A DNA stretch of 64,000 nucleotides from Wenjunlia vitaminophila DSM 41686. Lineage in GTDB: Bacteria; Actinomycetota; Actinomycetes; Streptomycetales; Streptomycetaceae. The notes below the pieces were generated by a model. That model ran no database searches. It worked only from the letters and a program-made list of their open reading frames with translations, and was not told the DNA's origin. This document shows, in pieces, positions 18,556-61,114 of this stretch (its first letter is position 1; each line of letters starts with the position of its first letter). Location of the stretch: the NCBI RefSeq assembly GCF_000380165.1, contig NZ_KB904636.1, positions 62,001-126,000 of the forward strand, read 5' to 3'. The position numbers were made by a program, and so were the translations under genes.

Positions 18556-18578
18556 GAGCGACTCCTCACGTTCAGTCA

Positions 18579-42197: not shown

Positions 42198-45002
42198 TCA
42201 GGTGTGCAGCGTGAAGCCGTCGAGGGTGGCGTAGACGCCGCTGCGCTTGACGATCTGCACCGTGTGCTCCCCCCGGGGAAGTCCCTCGACGGTGAAGATG
42301 GCCTGTTGCACCTGGCGCTCGGCCGAGGTGGTGTCCACCAGCCCCTGGGAGACGCCGTCGAGGAAGACCTCGACGTCGCCCTGGTCGGAGTACTTCTCGC
42401 CGAGGACGGTGATCCCGGTCCCGTGGAAGGTGAGTGAGGCGGAGGCACCGTCGGTGGTCGTGTACTGGACGTCGTCGACCAGGTCGCCGGCACCGCGGTT
42501 CGGGGAGAAGCCCCAGCCTTCCGAGTACGCGACTCCCGAGGTGTTGTTGATCACCTCGACGCCTGACGGCTTGGCGAGGGTGACCTCGACGGCCGCCTGG
42601 TTGCGCCAGACACCCAGCGTGAACGTGCTGCCGCCCGGGAGCCTGTTGTACGCCGTCCAGAAGCTGTTGCGGTCGGTGACCTCCTGGCCGTTGATCTGGC
42701 GGATGACGTCGTTGGTCCGCAGGCCCTGGGCGTAGGCGTGCGACGTGTCGGGAACGGACTTCAGGTACAGGCCGTCGTAGTCACCGAGCGCCACCGCCGA
42801 CTTGATCTCGTCTGAGTAGATCTGGGTCGCCCGCGCGCCGAGCAGGGGCTCCGGAAGTGCCTTGTACGGGTCGGGCGGAACGACTCGCCACTGGAGCGGC
42901 GGTGGCGTGGGGGCGCCCTGCCTGCCGAAGCCGGTCATGGAGATGTTCTGGAAGCCGAGCTGCAGGGCGGGGGAGTCGTCCTGCACGGTGTAGTCGAGCT
43001 TGCCGAGATCGGAGAACGGGCTCGTCCCGGTGAACAGCGGGTCGGCGACCAAGGAGTTGACGTCGAGGCCCGCGGCACGCCAGGACTCGTTGATGTCGGC
43101 GACGGGCTTGCCGTTGTTCCAGAACAGGTTGCGGTCAATGAGCGGCTTGCTCTTCGCGAGGTCCACCGAGATCAGGTCGTACGGGTCGTCGGTGACGAAG
43201 ACGTTCTTCTCGACGACGTCGCCGTTGTCGGCGTACCAGACGTGGAAGTGCCCGCCGCCGTTGACGAAGATGTTGTTCCGCACCGTCCGGTAGAAGCCCT
43301 CACGGAGTTTCACCCCGCCGTTCAGCAGCAGGTTGTCCTCGATCAGGTAGTTCGAGGAGCCGTCGTCGAGGTCGATGTCCCACTGCGAGGAGTGCCAGAT
43401 CCGGTTGTGCCGGATGACCGTGGTCTCCATGGCGTCGAGCTTGGCGTACGACTTCTTGGTGGCGTCGTCGGCGTCCAGCGGCCAGAAGCGGTCGCGGCCC
43501 CAGGCGTTGAAGGGACCGTGGTCCGAGGTCTCCTTGACGCAGTTGAAGATGTCGTTGTTCTCGATGACGTGCCCGCCCCACGTGCCGTCGTTGACGTCGA
43601 CGCAGGCCCGCGGGCCGTCGTGGATGGTGTTGCCGGAGACGGTGATCCGACGGCTCATCGATATCTGGACACCCGAGGTCTGCTTCTCGAACTGTCCGTT
43701 GTCGTGCATCCAGTTGTCACTGATGCGGATGTCGCGGGGGTAGTTCTCGGACTTCGGGCCCGGGGTGGTGTCGGTGAGGGTCCTGCGGAAGTCGTCCCAG
43801 GTGGAAGGGTCGCGCACGGCGTCGGGGTTGCCGATGACCGCGACGTCCGAGGCGCCGGAGTGGCTGAACTCGTTGTCCGAGACGACGTCGTGCCTGTTGT
43901 AGCCGTCCAGGAAGACGGCGTTGCCGCCGACCTGGTCGAAGCGCGAGTTCCGGATGTCCACGTGCTCGGTGTTCTTCAGGTACGCGGCTCCTGTCCGCGC
44001 GATGGCCCAGTCGCCGAGTTGGAGCTTCTCGTACGGGCGGGTGAAGAGCGTGCGGTGGGTCTGGGTGAAGGTGAAGCCGGAGAAGGTCAGGTGCCGCACC
44101 GGCCGCTCCGGGCTCTCGCCCTGGACCCGGATCAGTTCCTCCCGCTCGGCCGTCTCGATGCGCGAGGTGGACAGGTCCGCGCCCTCGGGGGCGTAGAGGT
44201 ACAGCTTGCCCGCGTCCTTGTCGTAGAACCACTCACCGGGCGCGTCCAGTTCCTCGAAGACGTTCTCCACCATGAGGTAGCTGCCGTGCATACCGCTGCC
44301 ACGGTTGTTGTCGCCCACCCAGTCCAGCTTGGCGGTGCCGTCCTCGTTGACACCGGTGACCCTGAAGGAGTTGCCTCCCCACATGTGCTGGTGCAGGGCT
44401 CGGACCAGGGCCGTCGTGGGGTTCTTCCACGTCGCCACGCGGGCGGGGGAGATGGCGTCCGCGGCCGTGCCGCCGAGGATCGCCTGGGAGGGGTCGTAGT
44501 TGGGGTAGCGGGCCAGGACCTGGCGCTCCCCGTCGAGGAAGAGTTCGTCGAAGGCGAGTCCGGTGCCGATGTCGGCGACCTTGACGTCTCCGGAGTGCGT
44601 GCGCCACCGGGGCTTCAGCACCCGACCGCCGCTGAGCACGACCTTCTCGCCCGGGGCGGCGGTGTAGCTGACCGGAGCGGCGGCGGTGCCGGAGTCCTGC
44701 GGTCCGAAGGTCAGGGTGCGGGGGAGGTGGTAGGTACCGCCGCGCACGACGACCTGGACGGCCACACGCTTGGTCAGGGTCAGGGCGCGGACCGCCCTCT
44801 GGGCGCGCTCGATGGTCCGGAACGGGTGGTTCACGGTGCCCTGCGCCTGGTCGTTGCCGACCGGGGACACGTACAGCCGGACGCTGGCGGACGCGTCCGC
44901 GGGAGCCGTGGGCAGCAGGACGAGACCTGCTGCCAGGGCAGCGGTGGTCAACGCCACTGACAGTCGGCGAGATGCCCGCCCTGGCTGTGTGGTTCTGTTC
45001 AA
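42198..45002 (-). CDS. Secreted GH141-like right-handed beta-helix protein with PDZ domain
   Basis: The likely start is TTG 45002 with AGGAG at proper distance, giving about 934 residues and a Sec signal peptide. The N-terminal part (LYVSPVGNDQAQGT, then RGGTYHL) and the long parallel beta-helix up to about residue 680 resemble GH141 enzymes, which include alpha-L-fucosidases. A PDZ-like domain (GLYLKSVPDTSHAYAQGL, NDVIRQINGQEV) follows, and a C-terminal jelly-roll module ends the protein. Next to a GH29 fucosidase, an exo-acting fucosidase role is likely. GH110 or another beta-helix family cannot be excluded. Confidence 0.8.
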   Translation of the reverse strand: MNRTTQPGRASRRLSVALTTAALAAGLVLLPTAPADASASVRLYVSPVGNDQAQGTVNHPFRTIERAQRAVRALTLTKRVAVQVVVRGGTYHLPRTLTFGPQDSGTAAAPVSYTAAPGEKVVLSGGRVLKPRWRTHSGDVKVADIGTGLAFDELFLDGERQVLARYPNYDPSQAILGGTAADAISPARVATWKNPTTALVRALHQHMWGGNSFRVTGVNEDGTAKLDWVGDNNRGSGMHGSYLMVENVFEELDAPGEWFYDKDAGKLYLYAPEGADLSTSRIETAEREELIRVQGESPERPVRHLTFSGFTFTQTHRTLFTRPYEKLQLGDWAIARTGAAYLKNTEHVDIRNSRFDQVGGNAVFLDGYNRHDVVSDNEFSHSGASDVAVIGNPDAVRDPSTWDDFRRTLTDTTPGPKSENYPRDIRISDNWMHDNGQFEKQTSGVQISMSRRITVSGNTIHDGPRACVDVNDGTWGGHVIENNDIFNCVKETSDHGPFNAWGRDRFWPLDADDATKKSYAKLDAMETTVIRHNRIWHSSQWDIDLDDGSSNYLIEDNLLLNGGVKLREGFYRTVRNNIFVNGGGHFHVWYADNGDVVEKNVFVTDDPYDLISVDLAKSKPLIDRNLFWNNGKPVADINESWRAAGLDVNSLVADPLFTGTSPFSDLGKLDYTVQDDSPALQLGFQNISMTGFGRQGAPTPPPLQWRVVPPDPYKALPEPLLGARATQIYSDEIKSAVALGDYDGLYLKSVPDTSHAYAQGLRTNDVIRQINGQEVTDRNSFWTAYNRLPGGSTFTLGVWRNQAAVEVTLAKPSGVEVINNTSGVAYSEGWGFSPNRGAGDLVDDVQYTTTDGASASLTFHGTGITVLGEKYSDQGDVEVFLDGVSQGLVDTTSAERQVQQAIFTVEGLPRGEHTVQIVKRSGVYATLDGFTLHT

Positions 45003-45181
45003 CTGGGTCTCCTGGAGGTGGGTCAGGCGCACGTGCGACGGGACCGCCCTGTGCCGCGGTGACGAGCCTGTGGGCGGACGCCGCCTGTTGCTCGGTCCAC
45101 CGAGTAGGCCGCCGCCCTGGAGCATTGTTCCGATGTCCGGACTGTTGCGGCGGCGCGCGGTCAGAGAAGCAGGGACGAGAA

Positions 45182-45195
45182 GGTCGGATGAATCA
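45182..45195. promoter_or_regulatory. Candidate GntR operator upstream of GH141-like gene
   Basis: The sequence GGTCGGATGAATCA shares the 10-mer TCGGATGAAT with the operator-like site at 53186-53197 of the fucose block. It lies about 180 nt upstream of the GH141-like start codon. The left half-site is degenerate (GGTC instead of CATC). Confidence 0.45.
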
Positions 45196-45267
45196 GGGTT
45201 GTGCGGGGGCCGGCGTCGGCAGCGGTGCCGACGCCGGCCTGGTGGTGCGGACGAGTGGGGGTTCTCG

Positions 45268-47625
45268 TCAGTTCTGCCACTCCACCTTGAACACCCACAC
45301 GTGCTTGCCGGCCTTGCGGGCCGCCTCCGGAACGTCGATGACCAGGGCGCCGTTGCGGACGGTCCAGGTCAGGGGGCGCTTGTAGCCGAGCAGGGTGACC
45401 TTGTCCCCGCTGCGGATCGGCACCGGCGCCTCGACGGTGAGCTTCGCGCCGGGTGCGGCGAGCGAGTGGATGTAGAAGGCCTCGTTCTGCCGGACCGTGA
45501 ACCGCAGGTCCTCGCCGAGCTGCGCCATCCGCGCCCAGTAGGTGGTGTCGTAGATGGCCTCGCCGTTGACCGCCAGCCACTCCCCCGTCTCGCGCAGCCG
45601 GGTCTGCATGACCTCGGGGATGGTGCCGTCGGCGCGCGGGCCGATGTCGAGGAGGAAGTTGCCGTTCTTGGAGACGATGTCGACGAGGCTGTGCACGATG
45701 GCCTCGGCGGTCATATACATGTCGTCGGGGGTGGCCTGGTTGTAGCCGTAGCTGTACGGGTCCAGGCCACGGCTCGACTCCCACTTGGCGACGACCGTGT
45801 TGTCGTAGGTCGTGTACTCGGGGGTCGTGAAGTCGTGGATGGGGATGCCGCCGCGGTTGTTGACGGTCACCTCGTACGGCTTCGGGCGGTTCTTGCCGTG
45901 GTTGAAGTACTCGGCGAAGACGTTGTAGCTGTCGTTCACGCCGCCGATGTCGCACCACATGATCTGGGTGTCGTACCGGTGGATCAGCTCCAGCATCTGC
46001 GCGGCCTGGACGTCCTTCACGTAGTCCTTGCCCGCCGTGTAGCCGGTGTACGGGACCGGCTCGAGGGTGTAGGGGTTGCGCGGGGCGTGGCCCATCCACG
46101 GGTTGTCCGGGTTGAACCACTCGGGCATGGAGAAGTAGAGCCCGCGGTGGAGTTCCGGGGTGTACGCGCGGGACGCGTCGAAGAGTTCCTTGACCAGGTC
46201 GCGCCTGGGTCCCATCTTGACGGAGTTGCGGTCCGAGACCTTGGTGTCCCAGAGCGCGAACCCCTCGTGGTGCTTGGACGTGAGGACGTGGTACTGGGCG
46301 CCCGCGTCGCGGAACAGCTCCACCCAGGAGCGCGGGTTGAACCTCTGCGCCGTGAACATCGGGATGAAGTCGTCGTACGCGAAGTCCGTGCCGTACTTCT
46401 CCGCGTGGTACGCGTGCGCCGGGTTGTTCGGGTTCTGCATCTGGTCCCAGTACCACTCGGCGTACTGCTTGCCCACCGGCGCCCAGGCCGGCACCGAGTA
46501 GACGCCCCAGTGGATGAAGATGCCAAACTTGGCGCCGTGGAACCAGTACGGCGCCTGGTGCTGCGACAGGGACGCGTCGGTCGGCTGGTAGTCGCCGACC
46601 CCGAGGGTGAGCTGGCGGGCGCTCGACGCGGCGGTCCCGCCCGTGCCCGCCGCGACGACACGCCCGTCCTGGACCGTTCCCGGACGCACCCCGACGCGGT
46701 TGCGGATGCCGACGCGGACGCGGACCTCCTCCCCGGGCTCCAGACGGGTGATGGGCGCGGGCTGCACGGTGCGGGCACCCGGCACCTGGACGCTCACCGT
46801 GAGCTCGTCCCCGGCCAGGATGGCGACCGAGCCGGCGTTGATCACGGTCGCCTCGACGCTCTGCGCACCCGAGTCCTCCAGCAGCGACACGGTGGAGTGC
46901 GCGTCGCGGAGCAGGACCGCGCGGCCGGTGGCGGCCGGCTGGAGGGTGAGCGCGAAGACGTGCAGGGAGGTCTTGTACTCCTGCGCGGGGTTGGTGACGG
47001 GCAGCGTGATGGCCACCGCCTCGCGCTGCGGGTCGATGTACAGGTCACTGGTGCCCAGGCCGACCTGGTGCTCGTCCTTCGTGCCGTCCGGCCGGTACCG
47101 GTAGGGGGCCGAGAGGCGACCACCGGCCCCGTACCAGTCCGGTCCGCTGACGCCCCCGGTGGACGTGGAGCCGTCGGCGTAGTGCACGGTCGCCAGCCCC
47201 GAGGCGTGGCCGTAGCTGCCGGCGGTGAGGAACAGCGCCGACAGGTACCGCGCCTTGGGGATGTCGATGCGCTGGCCCATGGCGACGACGTTGTTGTTGG
47301 CACCCGCGGCCGACGAGGGGAACGCGAACGGGACGCCGTTGACCTCGACGCGGCCCGCCGGGAGTTCCTCACCGGGGAAGGTGTAGCCCGAGCCGTCGAA
47401 GTTGCCTCCCCGCGCGTCGGCGGTGTCGATGGCGTCGTTGTCGAAGTACGCCTCCAGCGGGACCACCACCGGGTCGGGGACGGTTCCCCACGCGGGGTCC
47501 GTCGCCGCGGACCGGGTCGCGGAGGAGGGCGCGGCGGAGGCGTGGCCCGCGGCGAGCGGCACGGCGGCCACGGCGGCGACTCCTGCTGCTGCTCCGAGGA
47601 CTTGGCGTCTTGGATAGGTGCTCAC
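45268..47625 (-). CDS. Secreted GH29 alpha-L-fucosidase
   Basis: The GTG start at 47625 gives 785 residues with a Tat-type signal (YPRRQVLGAAAG). Residues 45-340 form beta-sandwich modules. The GH29 barrel starts at KFGIFIHWGVYSVPAW and continues with SKHHEGFALW; the nucleophile is Asp559 in IMWCDIGG. NFLLDIGPRADG is another family hallmark. It removes terminal alpha-L-fucose from glycans outside the cell, supplying fucose for the catabolic operon nearby. A C-terminal beta domain completes the GH29 architecture. Confidence 0.93.
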   Translation of the reverse strand: MSTYPRRQVLGAAAGVAAVAAVPLAAGHASAAPSSATRSAATDPAWGTVPDPVVVPLEAYFDNDAIDTADARGGNFDGSGYTFPGEELPAGRVEVNGVPFAFPSSAAGANNNVVAMGQRIDIPKARYLSALFLTAGSYGHASGLATVHYADGSTSTGGVSGPDWYGAGGRLSAPYRYRPDGTKDEHQVGLGTSDLYIDPQREAVAITLPVTNPAQEYKTSLHVFALTLQPAATGRAVLLRDAHSTVSLLEDSGAQSVEATVINAGSVAILAGDELTVSVQVPGARTVQPAPITRLEPGEEVRVRVGIRNRVGVRPGTVQDGRVVAAGTGGTAASSARQLTLGVGDYQPTDASLSQHQAPYWFHGAKFGIFIHWGVYSVPAWAPVGKQYAEWYWDQMQNPNNPAHAYHAEKYGTDFAYDDFIPMFTAQRFNPRSWVELFRDAGAQYHVLTSKHHEGFALWDTKVSDRNSVKMGPRRDLVKELFDASRAYTPELHRGLYFSMPEWFNPDNPWMGHAPRNPYTLEPVPYTGYTAGKDYVKDVQAAQMLELIHRYDTQIMWCDIGGVNDSYNVFAEYFNHGKNRPKPYEVTVNNRGGIPIHDFTTPEYTTYDNTVVAKWESSRGLDPYSYGYNQATPDDMYMTAEAIVHSLVDIVSKNGNFLLDIGPRADGTIPEVMQTRLRETGEWLAVNGEAIYDTTYWARMAQLGEDLRFTVRQNEAFYIHSLAAPGAKLTVEAPVPIRSGDKVTLLGYKRPLTWTVRNGALVIDVPEAARKAGKHVWVFKVEWQN

Positions 47626-47656
47626 GAGTCGGTACTCCAAGGAGGGTTGAGCCGAG

Positions 47657-47670
47657 TATTCATCGGAGGT
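47657..47670. promoter_or_regulatory. Candidate GntR operator upstream of GH29 gene
   Basis: Read on the minus strand, the site contains TCCGATGAATA, close to the operator sequences near 53080 and 53186. It lies about 35-45 nt upstream of the GH29 start codon. One half is imperfect (CATCGGAGG). Confidence 0.55.
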
Positions 47671-48135
47671 CTGATGATTGAGGGAGGCCGAAAGCCTGTC
47701 AATAGCCCGCGCAAGAATCCGTGATTGGTCCGATGTCCCCGCGGCTCGGACCGTGCCTGTCGTCATCGGGGCGGCGCGTCCGCCCCGCCCACTCCGGGCA
47801 GCCGGACCCGCGCCTCCCGGCGTGCCGGGCGACGGGGTGCGGAAGCCGACGCACCGCACGGCGCGGCGCGGGCACCGGCCGCGACGGGGGCGGCGCGTGA
47901 GCAACCACCGTGACGGGTGGCGGCGCTGGGGTGCCGACGGTGACCCGGACGGCGGACCGCGAGCCGATCGGCCTCCGTTTGAGCAGGTGAGGTGAAGGAT
48001 GGCGTGCCGGCGGCCGGCAGCCTCCACCCTGTAGCAGGATGTGATCGCCCCGACTCGACGGGTTCACGGCGCGGTGGGGATCCCGCTGGCCGTCCGGCGG
48101 GAGCACGGCCCTGCTCGCGGCAGGAGCCGGGTGAC

Positions 48136-48146
48136 ACATCGGATGT
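48136..48146. promoter_or_regulatory. Palindromic operator upstream of GntR regulator
   Basis: ACATCGGATGT is a perfect 11-bp palindrome about a central G-C pair and is followed by TATAG. It lies about 85-95 nt upstream of the regulator start and fits autoregulation by a FadR-type GntR protein. Confidence 0.65.
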
Positions 48147-48229
48147 ATAGTGGCAAGCACGTCACCGTGCTGGTCAACAGGCCGCCGCCGCGTCTGTGTA
48201 TCTGGTTGAGACTGCAGGGGAGGTCTGTG

Positions 48230-48901
48230 ATGGCTGTGACCGACGAGGCCATCGGAAAGATCAAAGAGATGATCCTTTCCGGTGCGCTGCGCCCCGGGGA
48301 CCGGCTTCCCAAGGAGGCCGACCTCGCCGCCGAACTCGGGCTGTCCCGCAACTCCCTGCGCGAGGCGGTGAAGGCCCTGTCCCTGCTGAACGTCCTCGAC
48401 GTGCGCCAGGGGGACGGGACGTACGTCTCCAGCCTGGAGCCGCACCTGCTGTTGGAGGCCGTCTCCTTCGTCCTGGACTTCCACCGGGACGACCAGGCCC
48501 TCCAGGCACTGAAGGTCCGGGGGATTCTCGAGCCCGCGGCGACGGGCCTGGCCGCCGAGCGGATCGAGGACGGGGCGCTGGCGGAGCTGCGCGAGCTGCT
48601 CGACAGCCTCGGCGACAAGCCGAGCCTGGAGGAACTCGTCGCCAACGACCTGGAGTTCCACCGGCGGATCGCCAGGGCCTCCGACATTCCCCTGCTGTGC
48701 TCCCTGCTGGACTCACTGTCCGCCGCGACGGTGCGCGCCCGGGTGTGGCGCGGCATCACCGAGGAGGCGGCCGTGGCCCGGACGCTGGCCGAGCACCGGG
48801 CCATCCTCGACGCCCTGACCGAGCACGACGCGAAGACCGCGGAGGCCTGGGCGACGATCCACATCGCCAACGTCGTGCGGTGGCTGGACACCGCGCTGTG
48901 A
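48230..48901 (+). CDS. FadR-subfamily GntR transcriptional regulator
   Basis: The ATG at 48230 follows GGGGAGG and gives 223 residues. The winged-helix domain has the GntR signature ALRPGDRLPKEADLAAELGLSRNSLREAVKAL (in parts: LPKEADLAAELG and SRNSLREAVKAL). The C-terminal FCD ligand domain has metal-binding residues in LEFHRRIAR and EHRAILDAL. It sits between the fucosidase genes and the fucose transporter, with matching palindromes in front of each transcription unit, so it most likely represses the fucose regulon until a pathway intermediate binds. Confidence 0.92.
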   Translation: MAVTDEAIGKIKEMILSGALRPGDRLPKEADLAAELGLSRNSLREAVKALSLLNVLDVRQGDGTYVSSLEPHLLLEAVSFVLDFHRDDQALQALKVRGILEPAATGLAAERIEDGALAELRELLDSLGDKPSLEELVANDLEFHRRIARASDIPLLCSLLDSLSAATVRARVWRGITEEAAVARTLAEHRAILDALTEHDAKTAEAWATIHIANVVRWLDTAL

Positions 48902-48903
48902 CA

Positions 48904-48953
48904 CCGCGCTGCCGGTGACGGGGCCCGCCAGGGTCCCGTCACCGGCAGCGCGG
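48904..48953. terminator. Strong bidirectional hairpin terminator
   Basis: A perfect 19-bp inverted repeat at 48904-48922 and 48935-48953 starts 3 nt after the regulator stop. It lies between two convergent genes and should terminate both the regulator and the transporter transcripts. Confidence 0.85.
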
Positions 48954-49083
48954 TTCGGCCGGCCGGGGGTCTCCCCCGGCCGGCCGCCGCCATGAGGGCT
49001 CCGTCGTGCCTTGGGCACGCCTTCCCGGGCAGGACCGTCGGTCTCCGGGCCCTGACCGCTCCGGAGACCGACGTCACGACGGG

Positions 49084-50121
49084 TCATTCCTGCTTCTGCC
49101 CGGAGGCGAACCGGGAGATGATCAGGGCGACGATGATGATCACCCCGTTGAGGAACTGGTTCCACAGCGGGGGCACGCCGCCGAGCGTCATGATGTTGAC
49201 CACGAGCTGCAGGGTCAGGACACCGGTGAGCGCCCCGAACAGGGTGCCCTTCCCGCCGTTGAGGCTGACGCCTCCGATCACGGTGGCGGCGAAGACCTGG
49301 AAGATCCAGCCGCTGCCCTGGTTCGCCGACACCGAGCCGTAGTGGCCGGTGTAGAGGATGCCCGCCAGCGCCGCAAGCACACCGGCGAGGATCAGGACGA
49401 CGCAGACCACGCGGTCGACGCGGATGCCCGCGGTGCGGGCGGCCTCGGGGTTGCCGCCGATCGCGTACAGGGCCCTGCCGTGCTTCAGCCAGGCCAGTGC
49501 GGCGCCACCGAGGGTGAACAGCAGCACGGAGATCCAGATGGAGGCGGGGACGTCGAGCCAGGAGGCCTGCCCGAGGTAGGTGAACGACGACGGGAGGTCA
49601 ACGATCGACTGGCCCTCGGAGATCGCGATCTGCAGACCGCGCAGCATGGTCAGCATGCCCAGCGTGACGATGAAGCCGTTGAGTCGCAGCTTGAGGATGA
49701 GGAAGGCGTTCAACGCGCCGATCAACGCGCCCACGAGCAGGCACAGCGGCACGGAGAAGGAACCGGGGAGGAGTCCGAGGCCGCTGAACCGCCCGGCGTC
49801 CGCGGGCAGCACCATCCACACCGCGATGACGGGGGCGACACCGATGGTGGACTCCAGTGACAGGTCCATCCGTCCGGAGATCAGGATCAGTGCCTGGGCC
49901 AGCACCAACAGGCTGAGTTCGGTGGACTGCTGGGCGACGCCGATCAGGTTGTCGTTGGTGAGGAACGCCGGCGAGACGATGAACCCGATGACGCCGAGCA
50001 CCAGCAGCACCGGCACCAGGGACAGGTCGCGGAACCTCGCCAGGTCGGGGGCCCTGCTGGGCCCCGCGGCCCTCTTCAGCGGTGTTTCCTTGATCGTGGG
50101 TGCGTCAGTCGTGGTCGGCAT
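49084..50121 (-). CDS. RbsC-type sugar ABC transporter permease
   Basis: The 345-residue protein has about 8-10 hydrophobic segments and the permease signature GGNPEAARTAGIRVDRV typical of the RbsC/XylH family, where the cytosolic loop contacts the ATPase. The ATG at 50121 overlaps the ATPase gene end by 17 nt. Together with the ATPase and binding protein it would import a monosaccharide; fucose is inferred from the surrounding fucosidases and fuconate dehydratase. Confidence 0.92.
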   Translation of the reverse strand: MPTTTDAPTIKETPLKRAAGPSRAPDLARFRDLSLVPVLLVLGVIGFIVSPAFLTNDNLIGVAQQSTELSLLVLAQALILISGRMDLSLESTIGVAPVIAVWMVLPADAGRFSGLGLLPGSFSVPLCLLVGALIGALNAFLILKLRLNGFIVTLGMLTMLRGLQIAISEGQSIVDLPSSFTYLGQASWLDVPASIWISVLLFTLGGAALAWLKHGRALYAIGGNPEAARTAGIRVDRVVCVVLILAGVLAALAGILYTGHYGSVSANQGSGWIFQVFAATVIGGVSLNGGKGTLFGALTGVLTLQLVVNIMTLGGVPPLWNQFLNGVIIIVALIISRFASGQKQE

Positions 50122-51661: not shown

Positions 51662-51743
51662 GGCGGGTGTGCCGTCCTTTCCTTGCGGGGCACCGGCCGT
51701 CGCCGGTCCGGCCGAGCGGGGGCCCTGGGGGGCGCCGGCAGGG

Positions 51744-52787
51744 TCACTTGACGGTGTTGCCCCACAGGGCGGCGTCGTCCACGTTCTCCTTGGTCACCAG
51801 AGGCGCGGGGAGCTGGTCCTCCAGGCCGTTGGGGATCTTGACGATGGTGGAGTCGTGGTCGGTGGGCCCGGGCTTGAAGGTCTTGCCCTCGGCCGCGGCC
51901 TTGGCGTAGTACAGCGCGTACTTGGCGTAGAGGTCGGCGGGCTGGGAGACGGTGGCGTCGATGTGGCCCTTGCGGATCGCGTCGAACTCCTGGGGGATGC
52001 CGTCGTTGGAGATGATCGTGATGTGGCCCTTGGTCCCGGCCGGCTTCAGCAGGCCCTTCTGCTTGAGCAGGGCGAGGGTGGGCTGGAGGAAGACGCCGCC
52101 GGCCTGCATGTAGACGCCGTTGAGGTCGGGGTGCTGGGCGAGCAGGCTCTGCAGCTTGGCGGAGGCCACGTCGCCCTTCCAGTCGGTGGGCAGCTCGAAG
52201 ACCTTGATGTTGGGGAATCGTTCCTTCATGCATGAGGCGAAGGCCTCGGAACGGTCCCGCCCGTTGATGGAGTCCAGCGCGCCCTGCAACTCGGCGACCT
52301 TGCCCTTGCCGCCGAGCTGCTCGCCGAGGAACTCGCACGCCTTGGTGCCGTAGGCCCGGTTGTCGGCGCGCACGACCATGTAGACGTCGCCCTTGTCGGG
52401 GCGGGTGTCGACGCTGACCACGGGGATGTCCTTGGCGGCGAGCTGGTCCAGGGTGGAGGCGATGGCGCCGGTGTCCTGGGGGGCCATGACCACGGCCTTG
52501 GCGCCGCTGTTCTGGAAGACCTGGACGTTGGCGACGAGCTTGGTCACGTCGTTCTGCGAGTTGCTGGTGGGCAGCAGGTTCAGGTCGCCCTTGTCCTTCT
52601 CCTTGGTGATGTACTGGGCGTAGGAGTTCCAGAAGTCGGAGTCGGAGCGGGGGAGGTCAACCCCGATCTTCGGCTTGCTCTCGCTGCCCCCGTCCGTGGA
52701 GCTCTCACGGTTGCAGGCCGTGACGAGCCCGGCCACCATCAGTACCGCGGAGGCCGCGGCGGCTGTACGAATGCTCGTGAGCTTCAT
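51744..52787 (-). CDS. Sugar ABC transporter substrate-binding lipoprotein
   Basis: The ATG at 52787 follows AAAGAGAG. The 347-residue protein has a lipobox LVTAC with Cys25, so it is a surface lipoprotein. The remainder is a periplasmic-binding protein of the ribose/galactose type: KIGVDLPRSDSDFWNSYAQ at the start of the first lobe and ISNDGIPQEFDAIRKG in the second. It is the first gene of the transporter operon and captures the imported sugar, predicted to be L-fucose. Confidence 0.92.
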   Translation of the reverse strand: MKLTSIRTAAAASAVLMVAGLVTACNRESSTDGGSESKPKIGVDLPRSDSDFWNSYAQYITKEKDKGDLNLLPTSNSQNDVTKLVANVQVFQNSGAKAVVMAPQDTGAIASTLDQLAAKDIPVVSVDTRPDKGDVYMVVRADNRAYGTKACEFLGEQLGGKGKVAELQGALDSINGRDRSEAFASCMKERFPNIKVFELPTDWKGDVASAKLQSLLAQHPDLNGVYMQAGGVFLQPTLALLKQKGLLKPAGTKGHITIISNDGIPQEFDAIRKGHIDATVSQPADLYAKYALYYAKAAAEGKTFKPGPTDHDSTIVKIPNGLEDQLPAPLVTKENVDDAALWGNTVK

Positions 52788-53079
52788 GGCGCACACTCTC
52801 TTTGTGGGGCCGGCGCTCGTGCGTCGGCGGGTTGTCATGGTGTGTTACCGGTCGGAGGTCCAGGCCGGGTCCGCTGCCGTCGGCACGTCCGGCTGACACG
52901 CGCGGGGCGTGTCCTGCGGCGCGGTGAGATCCGTGCTGACGGCTGCTTCGCTCGCGCTGTGCTGGTGGCGTTCTGCGCCTGACATGGAAGAGACTCCCTC
53001 TGTGCCATCCGAGGAATAGGCCCTCCGATGGGCGCATGTCGGGGAGGTTACGGGAACAGGAGCAACGGTGACAAGATAT

Positions 53080-53090
53080 TCATCGGATGA
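53080..53090. promoter_or_regulatory. Palindromic GntR operator, transporter side
   Basis: TCATCGGATGA is a perfect 11-bp palindrome. Read towards the transporter it continues GAATATCTTG, matching the site 100 bp away. Confidence 0.7.
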
Positions 53091-53185
53091 CTTGCTGCTG
53101 TAGCCTCATCGCAACCCGAGCGATACACAGGCAGTCCCAACCCTCTCGCACAGCGTGTCACCACGAGGAAGACCCGACCTGAAAA

Positions 53186-53199
53186 CATCGGATGAATAC
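53186..53199. promoter_or_regulatory. GntR operator, catabolic operon side
   Basis: CATCGGATGAATAC contains the palindromic core CATCGGATG. It lies about 140 nt upstream of the fuconate dehydratase start and shares its right flank with the transporter and GH29 sites. Confidence 0.7.
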
Positions 53200-53333
53200 T
53201 TGCCTGTTCCGGTGTCGCAGCGTAGTGTCCCACCCATCGCCACCCAATCATCCGATCTATGCTCTCGGTTGGTGCTGTTCCGTCTTCGCCGTGGGGCTGA
53301 AGCACCACAGTGGAGGGTGTGAAAGGAATCCCG

Positions 53334-54722
53334 TTGTCCCCAGACCTCGCGCGGATCATCGCGATGGACACCTTCGATGTCCGCTTCCCCACCTCACGGG
53401 AGCTGGACGGGTCCGACGCGATGAACCCGGACCCGGACTACTCGGCCGCGTACCTGGTGCTGCGCACCGACTCCCCCGACGAGCTCGCCGGTCACGGCTT
53501 CACCTTCACCATAGGCCGGGGCAACGACGTCCAGGTGGCGGCCATCGAGGCCCTCAGGAGCCACGTCGTGGGCCGCTCCGTGGACGAGCTGTGCGCGGAC
53601 CCAGGACTGGTCAGCCGTTCCCTCGTCGGTGACAGCCAACTGCGGTGGCTCGGCCCGGAGAAGGGCGTCATGCATATGGCGATCGGTGCCGTGGTCAACG
53701 CCGTGTGGGACCTGGCGGCCAAGCGGCAGCGCAAACCCCTGTGGAAGCTGCTCGCCGACGCCGACCCCGAGTGGCTGGTGTCACAGGTCGACTTCCGGTA
53801 CCTCACCGACGCGCTCACCCCGGCGGAGGCCCTCGACCTGCTGCGCCGGGGCAAGGAGGGACGCGAGGAACGCGAGGACGCCCTGCTGCGCAAGGGCTAC
53901 CCCGCCTACACCACCTCGCCCGGCTGGCTGGGCTACTCCGACGAGAAACTCGCCCGGCTCGCCCGGGAAGCGGTGGCCGCCGGCTTCGCCCAGATCAAGC
54001 TGAAGGTCGGCGCCGACCTCGACGACGACATCCGCCGTTGCCGGGTCGCCAGGTCCGTGGTCGGACCGCACGTCCGGATGGCCATCGACGCCAACCAGCG
54101 GTGGAACGTCGACGACGCCGTCGCGTGGGTGGGAGCCCTGGCCGAGTTCGACCCGTACTGGATCGAGGAGCCCACCAGCCCCGACGACATCCTCGGGCAC
54201 GCGGCGATCCGCGACGCCGTGGCCCCCGTCAAGGTGGCCACCGGCGAGCACGTCCAGAACCGCATCGTGTTCAAGCAGCTCCTGCAGGCCGGGGCGATCG
54301 ACGTGCTCCAACTGGACGCGGCACGGGTCGGCGGGGTGAACGAGAACCTGGGAATCCTGCTGCTGGCCGCCAAGTTCGGCGTCCCGGTCTGCCCCCACGC
54401 CGGCGGGGTGGGCCTGTGCGAGCTGGTCCAGCACCTGTCGATGTTCGACTACGTGGCGCTGAGCCGCACCACGCAGGACCGGGTCATCGAGTACGTCGAC
54501 CACCTGCACGAGCACTTCACCGCACCGGTGGTGATCCGCGACGGCCACTACGTCGCCCCGACCGTGCCCGGCTTCTCCGCCGACATGGAACGCGCCTCGC
54601 TCACCGCCTACACCTACCCCGACGGGGCGTTCTGGGTGGCCGACCGCGCGGCGGTCCCGGGTCCGTCGGCCGCCGAGGGTTCGGACGACACCCCCCGCGA
54701 CAGCCTGGGGGTGCGCGCATGA
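53334..54722 (+). CDS. fucD: L-fuconate dehydratase
   Basis: The probable start is TTG 53334 after AAAGGA; GTG 53310 is the alternative and adds 8 residues. The enolase-superfamily barrel shows the fuconate dehydratase pattern: QIKLKVG with Lys222/Lys224, metal ligand Asp252 in [15 protein letters not shown], and His355 in [11 protein letters not shown]. The long insert [23 protein letters not shown] near the N-terminus is characteristic of the FucD/ENOSF1 branch. It dehydrates L-fuconate to 2-keto-3-deoxy-L-fuconate. The stop overlaps the SDR start (ATGA). Confidence 0.9.
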
Positions 54723-55480
54723 CGACCAACGGTCTGGCCGGGTTGCGCGCCGTGGTCACCGGCGGCGCCTCGGGCATCGGGAGGGCCACGGCGCTGGCGC
54801 TCCAGGCGCACGGCGCCCGGGTGGCGGTCCTGGACCTCACCCCCGAGGCCGTCAGCGCACCGCTCGTGGGCCTGCGGGTGGACGTCGCCGACGACGCCAG
54901 CGTCCGCACCGCCGTCGAGGCCGCGGCGACGGAGCTGGGCGGCATCGACATCCTCGTCAACAACGCCGGGGTCGGCGCCGCCGGCACCGTGGAGGACAAC
55001 CCCGACCAGCAGTGGCGTTCCGTGCTGGACGTCAACGTCCTCGGCGTGGTCCGCACCACCCGCGCCGCCCTCCCCCACCTGCGCCGGTCCGCGAACGCCG
55101 CGGTCGTCAACACCTGCTCGATCGCCGCCACCGCTGGCCTGCCGCAGCGCGCCCTGTACTCCGCGAGCAAGGGCGCCGTGCTGTCCCTCACCCTCGCGAT
55201 GGCCGCCGACCACGTCCGGGAGAACATCCGCGTCAACTGCGTCAACCCGGGCACGGTGGACACGCCCTGGGTGGGCCGGCTGCTGGACGCCGCCGAGGAC
55301 CCGGCCACGGAACGCGCCGCGCTGTGTGCCCGGCAACCCACGGGCAGGCTGGTCACCGCGGACGAGGTGGCCGCGGCCATCGTCTACCTGGCCTCCCCGG
55401 CCGCCGCCAGCGTCACCGGCACCGCGCTCGCCGTCGACGGCGGCATGGCGGGCCTGCGGTTGAGGCCCGCCAGCCGGTGA
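54719..55480 (+). CDS. Short-chain dehydrogenase, likely 2-keto-3-deoxy-L-fuconate dehydrogenase
   Basis: The ATG at 54719 overlaps the dehydratase stop. The 253-residue protein is a classical [13 protein letters not shown] cofactor loop, NNAG, catalytic Ser in NTCSIAAT, and YSASK with the catalytic Tyr/Lys. An Asp at the end of the second strand (VLDLTP) favours NAD. In the known non-phosphorylative fucose pathway an SDR oxidises 2-keto-3-deoxy-L-fuconate to the 2,4-diketo acid, so this is the best assignment. A role as fucose dehydrogenase is possible. Confidence 0.85.
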
Positions 55481-56478
55481 ACGCCGGCATCCAGCGCGCG
55501 GCGGTCGGCCGCGGCACCGCCTGGACGACGCGGCTCGCGTTCGGCTCGGCGGGCATCGGGAACCTCTACACCGCCGTCACCGACGACGACGCGGCCCGTA
55601 CCCTCTCCACCGCGTGGGACGTGGGCATCCGCTCCTTCGACACCGCCCCGCACTACGGCCTGGGCCTGGCCGAGCGGCGCCTCGGCGCTTTCCTGCGCGA
55701 GCGCCCCAGGGCCGAGTACACGATCTCCACCAAGGTCGGCAGGCTCCTGGTCCCCACTCCCGGGAACACCGGTGACGACCTGGCCAACGGCTTCGCCGTC
55801 CCCGCCACCTCCCGCCGGGTGTGGGACTTCAGCGCCGACGGCGTGCGGCGGAGCCTGGACGCCAGCCTGGAGAGGCTCGGGCTCGACCGGGTGGACATCG
55901 TCTACCTGCACGACCCCGACGACCACGCCGAACAGGCGCTGCGCGAGGCGTACCCCGCGCTGGAGCGGCTGCGCGCCGAGGGGGTGGTCCGGGCCATCGG
56001 CGTCGGCATGAACCAGACCGCCCTGCCCACGCGGTTCGTCACCGACACCGACATCGACGCGGTTCTGCTGGCCGGCCGCTACACGCTGCTCGACCAGAGC
56101 GGACTGGCCGAACTGCTGCCCGCCGCGGCGCGGCGGGGCACCTCGGTGATCGCCGGCGGGGTGTTCAACTCCGGCCTGCTCGCCGACCCCCACCCCGGCT
56201 CGAGGTACGACTACGCCGCGGCCCCCGCACCGGTGCTCCAGCGGGCCCTGCGCATGCGGGACCTCTGCGAACGCCACGGGGTGCCGCTGCGCGCCGCCGC
56301 CGCGCGGTTCCCCCTGGGGCACCCCGCCGTCGCCGGGGTCCTGCTGGGCCTGCGCAGTGCCTGGGAGGTCACCGACGCGGCCACCCTCGCCGAGCGGGAG
56401 ATCCCCGACGCCCTGTGGGAGGAGCTGCGGGCCCGACACCTCATCGCCTCCGACGCTCCTGTCCCGGGGAGGGGGTGA
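55477..56478 (+). CDS. Aldo/keto reductase, likely L-fucose dehydrogenase
   Basis: The GTG at 55477 overlaps the SDR stop (GTGA). The 333-residue protein follows the AKR pattern: FDTAPHYGLGLAERRLG with catalytic Asp and Tyr, STKVGR with the Lys, and VDIVYLHDPD with His. It resembles D-threo-aldose/L-fucose 1-dehydrogenases. It would oxidise L-fucose to L-fucono-lactone with NAD(P). It ends 6 nt before lutA. Confidence 0.85.
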   Translation: MNAGIQRAAVGRGTAWTTRLAFGSAGIGNLYTAVTDDDAARTLSTAWDVGIRSFDTAPHYGLGLAERRLGAFLRERPRAEYTISTKVGRLLVPTPGNTGDDLANGFAVPATSRRVWDFSADGVRRSLDASLERLGLDRVDIVYLHDPDDHAEQALREAYPALERLRAEGVVRAIGVGMNQTALPTRFVTDTDIDAVLLAGRYTLLDQSGLAELLPAAARRGTSVIAGGVFNSGLLADPHPGSRYDYAAAPAPVLQRALRMRDLCERHGVPLRAAAARFPLGHPAVAGVLLGLRSAWEVTDAATLAEREIPDALWEELRARHLIASDAPVPGRG

Positions 56479-56484
56479 CGTCGC

Positions 56485-57222
56485 ATGCGGATCGCGCTGT
56501 TCATCACGTGCTTCAACGACACCATGTTCCCCGGCACGGGCCGCGCCGTGCTGCGCGTGCTGGAACGCCTCGGCCACACCGTGGAGTTCCCGCAGGAGCA
56601 GACCTGCTGCGGCCAGATGCACGTCAACACCGGTTACCGGCGTGCGGCCGTGCCCCTGGTCGCCAGGTTCGCCGAGGCGTTCGCCGGCTACGACGCGGTG
56701 GTGACGCCCTCCGCCTCGTGCGCCGGCACGGTCCGGGAGAGCCACCCGCTCCTCGCCGGGCTCGGCGGCGCCGGGCTGCCGGACGCCGTGGCCGCGGTCG
56801 CGCCCCGGGTGTACGAACTGACCGAGTTCCTGGTCGACGTCCTGGGCGTCACCGACGTCGGCGCCCACTTCCCGCACCGGGTCACCTACCACCCCACCTG
56901 CCACTCCCTGCGGGGGCTGCGCCTGGGTGACCGGCCGCTGCGACTGCTCCGCGCCGTCAGGGGCATCGACCTCGTCGAGCTGCCCAGGGCCGACGCCTGC
57001 TGCGGCTTCGGCGGCACGTTCGCGATCAAGAACGCGGACACCTCCACCGCCATGCTCGCGGACAAGATGAGTGACGTGCTGAACACCGGCGCGGAGGTCG
57101 TGTGCGCCGCGGACAACTCCTGTCTGATGCACATCGGTGGCGGACTCGACCGACTCAGCGCCGGCGTCCGCACCATGCACCTGGCGGAGATCCTGGCCGC
57201 CACGGGAGGGCAGCGACCTTGA
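56485..57222 (+). CDS. lutA: LutA, Fe-S subunit of L-lactate oxidation complex
   Basis: The 245-residue protein has two CCG-type cysteine-rich domains: TCCGQMHVNTG in the first with an upstream CFND Cys, and TYHPTCHSLRG plus ACCGFGGTF in the second. These ligate Fe-S clusters in LutA/YkgE. With LutB and LutC it oxidises L-lactate to pyruvate at the membrane. The stop overlaps the lutB TTG start. Confidence 0.92.
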   Translation: MRIALFITCFNDTMFPGTGRAVLRVLERLGHTVEFPQEQTCCGQMHVNTGYRRAAVPLVARFAEAFAGYDAVVTPSASCAGTVRESHPLLAGLGGAGLPDAVAAVAPRVYELTEFLVDVLGVTDVGAHFPHRVTYHPTCHSLRGLRLGDRPLRLLRAVRGIDLVELPRADACCGFGGTFAIKNADTSTAMLADKMSDVLNTGAEVVCAADNSCLMHIGGGLDRLSAGVRTMHLAEILAATGGQRP

Positions 57223-58682
57223 GCACCGGCAGCGACGGGCGGGTCTGGCTGGGCACGCCCGCCTTCCCCAAGGCGGCACGCACCGCCCTGACCGACACCC
57301 AACTGCGCCGCAACCTGCGGCACGCCACGTCAACCATCCGCGCCAAACGCCTCCAGGCAGTGGAGGAGCTGACCGACTTCGAGGCGCTGCGGGAGGCCGG
57401 CTCCGCACTCAAGCGGCGTACCGCGCGCCACCTGGACCGGTACCTCGAGCAGCTCGAGCGGTCCGTCACCGACGCCGGAGGCACCGTCCACTGGGCGGCC
57501 GACGCCGCGGAGGCCAACCAGATCGTCACCCGACTGGTGCGGGCCACCGGTGAGCGCGAGGTGGTCAAGGTCAAGTCCATGGCCACGCAGGAGATCGGTC
57601 TCAACGAGGCGCTCGCCGAGGCGGGCATCACCGCGTACGAGACGGATCTGGCGGAGCTGATCGTCCAACTCGGCGAGGACCGTCCCTCCCACATCCTTGT
57701 CCCGGCCATCCACCGGAACCGTGCGGAGATCCGGGACATCTTCCAGCGCGAGATGGGCGCGTGGGGACGCGCCGCCCCGCGGGACCTCGACGACGGCCTC
57801 GAGTCGCTCACCGAGGCGGCCCGTCAGCACCTGCGCGAGAAGTTCCTGACCGCGAGGGTCGCGGTGTCCGGGGCCAACTTCGCCGCGGCGGACACCGGCA
57901 CCGTAGTGGTGGTGGAGTCGGAGGGCAACGGGCGGATGTGCCTGACCCTGCCGGAAACACTGATCACGGTGATGGGCATCGAGAAGGTCGTGCCGCGGTT
58001 CACCGACCTGGAGGTCTTCCTCCAGCTCCTCCCCAGGAGCTCCACGGGCGAACGCATGAACCCGTACACCTCCACGTGGACGGGCGTGGTGGCCGGGGAC
58101 GGCCCGCAGGCCTTCCACCTCGTCCTGCTCGACAACGGGCGCACCGACGTGCTGAAGGACACCGTGGGGCGCCAGGCCCTGGCGTGCATCCGCTGTTCGG
58201 CCTGCCTGAACGTCTGCCCGGTGTACGAGCGGACCGGTGGCCACTCCTACGGCTCGGTGTACCCGGGGCCGATCGGTGCGGTGCTGACCCCCCAGTTGGT
58301 GGGGGTGGGGCAGGCCGCGTCCCTGCCGTTCGCCTCCACCCTGTGCGGTGCCTGTTACGACGCCTGTCCTGTGAAGATCAACATTCCGGAGGTGCTGACG
58401 CACCTGCGGGCCGAGGTGGTCGAGGGCGGGCGGCAGGGCCTCAGACCGCCAACGGCGGAGGCGGTGGCCATGAAGGCCGCGGCGGCGGTGCTGAACTCGC
58501 CGCGGCTGTGGAGGATGGCACAGCGGGCCGCCGCGGTGGGGGGAGGGGTGGTCGGTCGCGGGGGACGCGTCCGGCGGCTCCCCGGCCCGCTGCGCGGCTG
58601 GTCGAACGCGCGGGACACCGCGGTGCCGCCGCGGGAGTCGTTCCGCGACTGGTGGCGGAAGAACCGGGAGGGTGGAGGATGA
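57219..58682 (+). CDS. lutB: LutB, Fe-S and LUD-domain subunit
   Basis: The TTG start at 57219 overlaps the lutA stop, with GGGAGGG upstream. The 487-residue protein has an N-terminal LUD domain (KVKSMATQEIGLNEAL, then GANFAAADTGTVVVVE) and two 4Fe-4S motifs, CIRCSACLNVCP (323-334) and CGACYDACP (376-384). This is the LutB/YkgF architecture. The C-terminal 90 residues are basic and specific to this family branch. It overlaps lutC by 4 nt (ATGA). Confidence 0.92.
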   Translation: MSTGSDGRVWLGTPAFPKAARTALTDTQLRRNLRHATSTIRAKRLQAVEELTDFEALREAGSALKRRTARHLDRYLEQLERSVTDAGGTVHWAADAAEANQIVTRLVRATGEREVVKVKSMATQEIGLNEALAEAGITAYETDLAELIVQLGEDRPSHILVPAIHRNRAEIRDIFQREMGAWGRAAPRDLDDGLESLTEAARQHLREKFLTARVAVSGANFAAADTGTVVVVESEGNGRMCLTLPETLITVMGIEKVVPRFTDLEVFLQLLPRSSTGERMNPYTSTWTGVVAGDGPQAFHLVLLDNGRTDVLKDTVGRQALACIRCSACLNVCPVYERTGGHSYGSVYPGPIGAVLTPQLVGVGQAASLPFASTLCGACYDACPVKINIPEVLTHLRAEVVEGGRQGLRPPTAEAVAMKAAAAVLNSPRLWRMAQRAAAVGGGVVGRGGRVRRLPGPLRGWSNARDTAVPPRESFRDWWRKNREGGG

Positions 58683-59326
58683 GCAGCCGCCGAACCGTAC
58701 TCGGCCGGATCAGGGCCGCCCTCGCCGACGTGCCGCGGGACGAGACCCCCGACCAGGTGGGTGTGGTGCGCGACTACCTGCGCAGCCACGCGGGCCACGA
58801 CGTGGTCGGCCTCTTCGTCGAGCGGGTGGCCGACTACGGTGCCACAGTGGTGCGGTGCGCCCCCGACGAGGCGGCCGGTGCCGTCGCCGCCGCGTTGGAG
58901 CGGCACGGCGCACGACGCGTGATCGTCCCCGAGGGGTTCCCGGCCGGTCTGCTGCCGGACGGCGACTGGGGGTGGGTGAGGGACGACCCGCCGCTGGGCG
59001 TCACGGAACTCGACGCGGCGGAGGGGACGTTGACCACGGCGGCGGTGGCCATCGCGGTCACCGGGACGGTGGTGCTGGACGCCGGGCCGGGTCAGGGCCG
59101 CCGCGCCCTGACCCTGGTGCCCGACTACCACCTGTGCGTGGTGCACGCCGACCGGATCGTTCCGGACGTGCCGGACGCCCTGGGCGGGCTCGACCCGCGC
59201 CGGCCGCTGACCTTCGTGTCCGGCCCGTCCGCGACCAGTGACATCGAACTGGAGCGGGTCGAGGGCGTGCACGGGCCGCGCACCCTCGATGTGATCGTCG
59301 TCGAATCCCGAGGGGCGGGGGCGTGA
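58679..59326 (+). CDS. lutC: LutC, LUD-domain subunit
   Basis: The ATG at 58679 overlaps the lutB stop. The 215-residue protein consists of a LUD domain with the conserved VTELDAAEGTLTTAAVAIAVTGTVVLD run (in parts: VTELDAAEGTLT, GTVVLDAG) and ends SATSDIELERVEGVHGPRTL, the LutC/YkgG hallmark. It is the last gene of the operon. The presence of a full lactate-oxidising complex in a fucose operon fits a pathway that releases L-lactate. Confidence 0.92.
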   Translation: MSSRRTVLGRIRAALADVPRDETPDQVGVVRDYLRSHAGHDVVGLFVERVADYGATVVRCAPDEAAGAVAAALERHGARRVIVPEGFPAGLLPDGDWGWVRDDPPLGVTELDAAEGTLTTAAVAIAVTGTVVLDAGPGQGRRALTLVPDYHLCVVHADRIVPDVPDALGGLDPRRPLTFVSGPSATSDIELERVEGVHGPRTLDVIVVESRGAGA

Positions 59327-60344: not shown

Positions 60345-60902
60345 GGCGCTCACTCCCTCATCTCGGGTCCTTCCCCGGTGCCCGCGACGGACGCCGGTAA
60401 ACCGGCATCGGAACCGACACCGCCCCGCGGTCGACGCCCGGTTTCCCGACCCGGCACACCCCCGCCGTGCGGGACATCGCATATCTCATTCCAGGCGAAC
60501 ACCGTCGACCAATTGCCCGAGCTGCTGAGACGTCGCTGATTCCGCCATCTCCGCACGGCCGCGAACCGAGCTTTTGACAGCGCTTTCCGTCGAGAGTTCC
60601 CTCCTGCGACCAATGCCTCCACCGCACCCGCGAAACGATGGTTCACCAGGGAGGACGCCCGTCCCACCTGGGCCTTGTGCGTGCAGGTCAGCGCCTTCCG
60701 CGCGTGCGAAGAGAAGGGAACCCGACGTTACCCGGGAAAAGGGAGCACGGAACGCGATCATACGGTTGACGAAAAGGCATTCGCCCTATCGACTTCCCCT
60801 GTACCAGTGGTTACCGTGAGGAGCCTCACCACCCTCAGGTGCCCACCGCGCAGGCAAAGGCGCCGCACAGGTCGTGGGCATCCCAACGGAAGGGGTTTCG
60901 TC
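60345..60902. other. Gene-free interval upstream of lanthipeptide genes
   Basis: This 558-bp interval has lower GC than its surroundings, especially 60480-60800. It should hold the promoter of the lanthipeptide genes; TTGACG at 60766-60771 is a possible -35 element, but no convincing -10 is at standard spacing. I see no second precursor peptide. Confidence 0.4.
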
Positions 60903-61106
60903 ATGCAGGCCATTCCCCTGGCAGAAACGAAGGACATCGTCTCCGGCTGGCGTGCCGGTGCCGAGAGCGTGGGCGCGTTCGACAACCCGGCCGGCCCCCT
61001 GTACGTCGGGGGCGCCGCCACCGAGGCCGGGCTCACCCGGCCCGACGTCGCTGCCGTCACCGGCCTGAGCCCCTGCACCGGCTCCGGCCCCATCGACTGT
61101 TGCTGA
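60903..61106 (+). CDS. Class II lanthipeptide precursor (LanA)
   Basis: The ATG at 60903 gives a 67-residue precursor. The leader has the W...NPAG pattern of mersacidin/actagardine-type leaders (Trp16, DNPAG at 27-31). The C-terminal core contains Thr53, Ser56, Cys58, Thr59, Ser61, Cys66 and Cys67, in TGLSPCTGSGPIDCC. Three Cys and four Ser/Thr allow up to three thioether rings. The cleavage site is unclear: there is a VGG at 35-37 and a DVAA at 48-51. The lanM gene starts 9 nt downstream. Confidence 0.88.
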   Translation: MQAIPLAETKDIVSGWRAGAESVGAFDNPAGPLYVGGAATEAGLTRPDVAAVTGLSPCTGSGPIDCC

Positions 61107-61114
61107 CGTCGGAC

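Follow-up and report, generated by a model that had tools for sequence, protein, structure and literature searches.

A predicted L-fucose regulon in Wenjunlia vitaminophila that appears to join a non-phosphorylating pathway to a LutABC complex

Why would the genes for a lactate-oxidizing complex be embedded in an operon for the breakdown of a deoxysugar? This question is raised by a stretch of 64,000 nucleotides of Wenjunlia vitaminophila DSM 41686 (the window), which lies on contig C3 (NZ_KB904636.1, positions 62,001 to 126,000) of a 6.43-Mb draft assembly of 111 contigs that is 99.2% complete and that was searched as a whole. An operon on the plus strand, spanning 53334-59326, encodes FucD, a short-chain dehydrogenase/reductase (SDR), an aldo/keto reductase (AKR), LutA, LutB, and LutC, and diverges from the gene for a sugar-binding protein (SBP). 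According to protein family searches, the minus strand carries the SBP-ATPase-permease set, a GH29 fucosidase, and a beta-helix protein, while a GntR/FCD regulator on the plus strand is positioned between the permease and GH29 genes. All of these genes had been named in the original prediction, an earlier reading of the same sequence, and all are present. A possible answer to the question comes from route 3 of non-phosphorylating fucose degradation, which ends in pyruvate and L-lactate (PMC11199699, partial text). We consider it likely that the locus is an L-fucose regulon under a GntR/FCD repressor, in which oxidation by route 3 is followed by a dedicated LutABC, and both three-carbon halves of the sugar are converted to pyruvate.

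In the proposed scheme, secreted fucosidases would release L-fucose, which a CUT2-type ABC importer would bring into the cell and the AKR would oxidize to a lactone. The lactone would open spontaneously or with the help of a fuconolactonase, whose gene is in trans on contig C24; FucD would then convert L-fuconate to L-2-keto-3-deoxyfuconate (KDF), and the SDR would oxidize this intermediate at C4 to a 2,4-diketo acid. Cleavage of that acid to pyruvate and L-lactate would fall to a hydrolase of the FAH family, also encoded in trans (contig C33), and the dedicated LutABC would oxidize the L-lactate to pyruvate. A GntR/FCD repressor, named FucR here, would control the regulon. The substrates, the transport, the directions of the reactions, and the delivery of fucose-derived lactate to LutABC we infer from sequence comparison.

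FucD appears to supply the L-fuconate dehydratase of route 3, with 299 of 436 aligned residues (69%) identical to those of the Xanthomonas campestris enzyme (PDB 1yey) and with six compared motifs, which we take to be catalytic, also identical. The nearest solved relatives of the AKR are L-galactose dehydrogenases, which are distant (E 2.2e-30); since L-fucose is 6-deoxy-L-galactose, a role as L-fucose 1-dehydrogenase fits, and the AKR probably acts as such. Residues R144, R205, S134, Y147, and K151 of the SDR align with R170, R231, S160, Y173, and K177 of 4dqx. A type-2 L-KDF 4-dehydrogenase from Paenibacillus has been assayed, type 2 was placed close to 4dqx, and Arg170 and Arg231 of 4dqx were proposed as probable substrate ligands (PMC11199699, partial text). 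By its ligand arginines and its Ser-Tyr-Lys set, the SDR would qualify as an L-KDF 4-dehydrogenase, the middle two residues of that paper's four-residue pattern lying outside the comparison. The final three genes are adjacent and appear to encode a complete LutABC subunit set with the expected domains, and LutB scores above the LutB/LldF family cut-off (TIGR00273; 465.6 vs 444.8 bits). LutABC is also known as LldEFG, and the three subunits with all domains resemble that complex.

Physical linkage within the operon is tight. Four overlaps of four bases join FucD to SDR (ATGA, 54719), SDR to AKR (GTGA, 55477), LutA to LutB (TTGA, 57219), and LutB to LutC (ATGA, 58679), as originally predicted and as read from the sequence; the AKR-LutA junction, with a gap of 6 bp, is the sole exception. 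The "direct fusion" of lutABC to the fucose genes that had been claimed is thus an adjacency within one operon, with no fused protein. The further description of the regulon as "complete-looking" does not survive the whole-genome family search, in which four FAH-hydrolase, four DHDPS-aldolase, and six amidohydrolase-2 family matches were found in the genome and none on contig C3. Because C3 has no match to these families, the cluster is without an enzyme that splits the C6 acid and without a fuconolactonase. Comparison supports the claimed conversion of both halves of fucose to pyruvate within one operon as far as FucD, SDR, and LutABC are concerned, but not for the steps whose candidates are the hydrolase on C33 and the lactonase on C24. 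With these candidates located on other contigs, a complete pathway may be encoded by the genome as a whole, though not by the operon.

The case for the two unlinked candidates comes from their relatives. The top PDB match of the C33 FAH protein is L-2,4-diketo-3-deoxyrhamnonate hydrolase (8gsr, E 3.3e-84), and the rhamnose and fucose routes have a common diketo-acid intermediate and common products (PMC11199699, partial text). The 80 named fucD loci used for comparison are the best 80 of at least 597 relatives, mostly from Streptomyces; in 78 of them, the stretch covered downstream of fucD is 5 kb or longer. Of these loci, 29 contain a counterpart of the C33 protein with at least 55% identity, and in 26 the counterpart shares the strand of fucD and lies no more than 300 bp 5′ of it. 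A lactonase-type amidohydrolase (cluster 2 by single linkage) is present in 49 of these loci, often 3′ of AKR or LutC, and has relatives on contigs C22, C24, and C86 of the W. vitaminophila genome. FAH4 has no match in the 80 loci and DHD2 has two.

Evidence for a shared regulon comes from a palindromic operator, TATTCATCSGATGAATA, found at three promoters of the cluster. Its consensus was derived from the fucD promoter of the window (TCATCGGATGA). Allowing up to five mismatches, it has six matches in the window, located at the SBP/fucD (four), GH29 (one), and GntR (one) promoters, and none elsewhere in the window; the core TCATCNGATGA has a single occurrence in the 6.4-Mb assembly. A position weight matrix (PWM) built from relatives only gives its six highest window scores (28.3 to 15.3) at the same six sites, while the top scores in ten shuffled 64-kb windows range from 4.7 to 18.6. 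Because one shuffled window scored 18.6, the weakest window site (15.3) and two sites on C16 (17.1 and 16.9), all of which it exceeds, are the least certain. FucR is the likely ligand of this operator, and the site upstream of the GntR gene suggests that it is autoregulated.

The operator recurs beyond the window. With up to four mismatches allowed, the operator has 52 matches in the 80 named loci, and 47 of these, spread over 31 loci, fall in the 900 bp that precede FucD, FAH, SBP, or GntR matches. This upstream zone accounts for 10.8% of the sequence; scrambled palindromes, of which 30 were tried, placed 0-9 matches there, with one reaching 9. Since the loci are related, these matches are not independent. 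In the W. vitaminophila genome, the 15-mer ANWCATCSGATGWNT has ten sites with at most one mismatch, and the backward pattern has none. Five of the ten, including all three exact ones, are in this cluster, and the others lie upstream of an SDR-fuconolactonase pair on C24 (one), of a GH29 gene on C37 whose product is apparently secreted (two), of a GH95 gene on C16 (one), and, at close range, of a GntR/FCD gene on C48 (one). The C24 site was already known when the pattern was written; those on C37, C16, and C48 were new from the search. Because the new targets on C37 and C16 both belong to alpha-L-fucosidase families, they provide strong and independent support for L-fucose. Comparison makes the substrate named in the original prediction very likely on three counts, namely the identity of FucD, the ligand residues of the SDR, and the operator at two more alpha-L-fucosidases and at the SDR-fuconolactonase pair. 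No operator with up to five mismatches was found in the stretches around the C33 hydrolase, a cassette on C22, and a lutABC set on C57 (top PWM scores 8.0, 11.3, and 3.2). The operator thus appears to be conserved at the promoters of the pathway genes, the C33 hydrolase excepted.

Two neighbors of these genomic sites are recorded separately. A PF07555 beta-N-acetylglucosaminidase gene adjoins the operator-marked GH29 gene on C37 (locus L202, C37:29001-44000, 5669-11251), perhaps forming a glycan-degradation locus. An operator-like site at ~5555 of locus L203 (C48:16001-28000) is just 5′ of the other GntR/FCD domain, which may mean that two regulators use this operator.

Whether the association of fucD with lutABC extends beyond this genome was addressed by the comparative search for adjacency that the original prediction, which called the coupling unusual, had proposed. 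It covered 293 genomes of the order, with a match threshold of E 1e-150 or better and linkage defined as a distance within 4 kb. Among the matches listed, fucD is found in 162 and lutB in 277 of the genomes, and in at least 17 of the 293, this one included, the two are linked, 2.4-3.8 kb apart. Three more loci with AKR or lactonase beside lutB (G289, G023, and G029) stand outside the 17; for none of them is a fucD listed on the contig in question. The pairing is an uncommon yet recurrent variant, the individual parts of which are known. Within the 80 named fucD loci, lutABC occurs in seven (Peterkaempfera, two Streptomyces, Kitasatospora, Streptacidiphilus, Catenulispora, and Actinoplanes), which is no prevalence figure because the 80 are the best of the larger, mostly Streptomyces set.

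The LutB proteins of these operons form a group of their own. The W. vitaminophila genome has three lutABC sets, on C3 (the window), C22, and C57, the last with no fucose gene found in the surrounding 20-kb stretch. In a LutB tree of 39 rows, 27 operon-linked rows and the C22 copy split with 100/100 support from the 11 unlinked rows, among which is the C57 copy; the tree includes 30 of the matches most like the LutB of the window, so that linked copies of lower similarity may have escaped it. In genus g8 of family f3, the AKR-adjacent lutB is the only lutB match at the threshold in all 10 sampled genomes (best five candidates per genome scored) and may for this reason have a part in general lactate use as well. 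In Streptomyces griseoflavus L081, the interval between AKR and lactonase (13124-13955) contains only partial matches of low identity to lutA and lutC, and lutB has no match, which suggests decay; this locus was left out of the tree. A tentative extension, to which we assign a modest chance, is that the deoxysugar operons of Streptomycetales-type actinobacteria acquired a separate lineage of LutABC, which moves with the SDR-AKR module and appears also in Actinoplanes and with the C22 dehydratase. It might be functionally specialized, e.g., for hydrolase-made L-lactate or a related 2-hydroxy acid, with unlinked lutABC serving external lactate. The C22 cassette is itself of note (L140, C22:36001-56000, 8147-19999), comprising SBP, an enolase-type dehydratase with 30% identity to FucD, permease/ATPase, a RhaM-type mutarotase, SDR, AKR, LutABC, and lactonase, with a GH29 gene nearby.

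In Dyella, a different type of putative lactate enzyme accompanies fucD. In loci L111 and L121, an FMN-dependent LldD-type dehydrogenase is encoded 3′ of fucD, with the two genes overlapping in L111 and ~280 bp apart in L121; the proteins score 442 and 440 bits, where the L-lactate dehydrogenase subfamily NF008398 has its cut-off at 376. Beside SDR in Nocardia vulneris L120 stands a weaker LldD-like gene, which at 305 bits does not reach that cut-off. The presence of two unrelated enzyme types, LutABC and LldD, in fucose operons is the best argument for L-lactate as the substrate that can be made from sequence alone, with 2 of the 80 loci, from one genus, above a cut-off for LldD.

Several other explanations can be weighed against this evidence. 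The same enzymes might act on D-arabinose or L-galactose, which have the same configuration as L-fucose at the relevant carbons, and the Lut copy might oxidize glycolate or L-glycerate rather than L-lactate. Such a broader cassette would agree with an AKR that acts on D-arabinose, L-fucose, and L-galactose and with the conversion of pentoses to pyruvate and glycolate (PMC6336799, partial text), with D-2-keto-3-deoxypentonate (D-KDP) as the physiological substrate of KDF dehydrogenase (PMC11199699, partial text), with the L-galactose dehydrogenases nearest to the AKR, and with the pairing of a second SDR-AKR-LutABC-lactonase set with a different dehydratase on C22. We nevertheless regard it as improbable, given that the further genomic targets of the operator are alpha-L-fucosidases and the SDR-fuconolactonase pair, that LutB exceeds its family cut-off, and that LldD is found in a Dyella fucose operon.

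The remaining two explanations concern the cleavage step and the Lut genes, and both seem very unlikely. In route 1, an aldolase would split KDF to pyruvate and L-lactaldehyde, the SDR would be a sugar 1-dehydrogenase, and Lut would act only after a lactaldehyde dehydrogenase. The four DHDPS-family matches in the genome leave room for this route, but none is on C3 or lies within 1.5 kb of an operator (top PWM score 3.6), and a KDF aldolase was set aside as the cleaving step; the ligand arginines of the SDR and the hydrolase directly 5′ of fucD in 26 of the 80 loci also argue against route 1. A merely fortuitous placement of lutABC, with its own control and an unrelated physiology, would suit its presence in only 7 of the 80 named fucD loci and the two further sets in the genome, and conflicts with the 6-bp gap and 4-nt overlaps, with an arrangement shared by at least 17 of the 293 genomes, and with the single supported lineage of linked LutB copies.

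A dedicated LutABC at the end of route 3 remains the favored explanation, against which several observations must be set. The chief loose end is the C33 hydrolase, which is unlinked and operator-free, with a top PWM score below 0 around its start, and which reaches 359 bits where the NF053535 cut-off is 500. The C24 lactonase candidate has an operator-like site upstream and scores 227 bits vs a cut-off of 400 for NF052480. Among the NCBIfam families matched by FucD, none is named for L-fuconate dehydratase, and the role of the AKR is based on distant similarity. The substrate of Lut is not readable from its sequence, the Dyella LldD falls under the narrower NF033901 cut-off (391 vs 550 bits), and Lut would be dispensable for the pathway, because lutABC is present in the stretch covered at only 7 of these 80 loci around fucD.

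The genes and sites of the cluster are listed in Table 1. The beta-helix protein appears to belong with the BT_1002-like parallel beta-helix proteins, for which we assume the label GH141; its PDB matches include 5mqp (BT_1002, E 3e-21) and 9rx2 (E 2.1e-31). Its C-terminal PDZ and CE2_N-like domains are, in our view, an odd mix for a glycosidase. The GH29 protein matches alpha-L-fucosidases in the PDB (top 1hl8, E 4.7e-77) and has an N-terminal motif that we take to be a twin-arginine-type signal. The GntR/FCD regulator matches nine NCBIfam families, all below cut-off. Elsewhere in the window, a protein with a TMEM175-type potassium channel domain is encoded at 37145-38017.

Table 1. Predicted genes and operator sites of the fucose cluster and its downstream neighbor (window coordinates).
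Feature	Position	Strand	Basis or remarks
Parallel beta-helix protein, apparently secreted, BT_1002-like	42198..45125	-	Pfam Beta_helix, PDZ_2, CE2_N
GH29 alpha-L-fucosidase	45268..47625	-	PF01120 E 8.5e-101; predicted GTG start ~47625
Operator TATTCATCGGAGGTCTG upstream of GH29	47657..47673		PWM 23.8; ~30 bp before predicted start codon
Operator GACACATCGGATGTATA upstream of GntR gene	48133..48149		PWM 24.0
GntR/FCD regulator, proposed fucose repressor	48227..48901 (within open reading frame 48041-48901)	+	PF00392, PF07729; predicted start GTG 48227 or ATG 48230
CUT2 (Rbs/Ara-type) ABC permease	49084..50121	-	PF02653; NCBIfam AraH/MglC/RbsC-like, under cut-offs
CUT2 ABC ATPase	50105..51661	-	NCBIfam AraG/YtfR/RbsA-like, under cut-offs
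Periplasmic-binding-protein-type SBP	51744..52838	-	PF13407 E 1.2e-50
Weak operator-like site, divergent SBP/fucD promoter	53002..53018		PWM 15.3; exceeded by the top score of 1/10 shuffled windows
Top operator TATTCATCGGATGACTT, core TCATCNGATGA	53077..53093		PWM 28.3
Operator AAAACATCGGATGAATA	53182..53198		PWM 25.2
Operator-like site CAATCATCCGATCTATG	53245..53261		PWM 20.9
FucD, predicted L-fuconate dehydratase, enolase superfamily	53334..54722	+	Similarity to 1yey
SDR, type-2-like L-2-keto-3-deoxyfuconate 4-dehydrogenase	54719..55480	+	Top PDB match 4dqx E 8e-53
AKR, probable L-fucose 1-dehydrogenase	55477..56478	+	PF00248
LutA, two CCG cysteine-rich domains	56485..57222	+	PF02754, two stretches, E 4.2e-34
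LutB, LUD + 4Fe-4S + LutB_C	57219..58682	+	PF02589, PF13183, PF11870
LutC, LUD domain	58679..59326	+	PF02589 E 8.5e-22
DUF4135 + LANC-like protein, presumably class II lanthipeptide synthetase-type region	60839-63979		Downstream of operon

The relation of this locus to known systems is one of partial likeness. The genome encodes relatives of the FucD, SDR-type KDF 4-dehydrogenase, FAH-type hydrolase, and lactonase of route 3 in X. campestris, Herbaspirillum, and others, whereas the AKR as probable aldose dehydrogenase, the 4dqx-type SDR, the unlinked hydrolase and lactonase candidates, and lutABC in the operon set it apart. Its RbsA/MglA-like ATPase beside oxidative fucose genes recalls the CUT2-type L-fucose importer of Herbaspirillum seropedicae (PMC11378808, partial text). 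Oxidative fucose loci with predicted FucR sites have been drawn for microbial-mat bacteria, and the words L-lactate, lld, and lut are absent from the main text of that paper (PMC5507952, partial text). The extension of a deoxysugar regulon by lactate oxidation is already known for rhamnose, since lldD and lldEFG belong to the RhaR regulons of some Actinomycetales and Rhodobacterales, as published in 2013, which further qualifies the description of the coupling as unusual (PMC3870299, partial text). Like those regulons, a 6-deoxyhexose regulon would here be extended by oxidation of L-lactate to pyruvate; unlike them, being phosphorylating rhamnose systems of RhaEW genomes, it would be for fucose and non-phosphorylating (PMC3870299, partial text). 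No description of a fucose-lutABC coupling was found in a literature search by title and the start of the abstract, a weak test with most subscription journals outside its coverage. The non-phosphorylating fucose version, the separation of operon-linked Lut copies from the other LutABC sampled, and the actinobacterial operator seem to be new.

These findings provide, for an actinobacterium, a fucose operator that can be tested and a regulon that spans the genome, together with the prediction that both halves of fucose end as pyruvate. They also suggest that, where a bacterium has several lutABC sets, one of them may serve as the terminal module of a sugar pathway.

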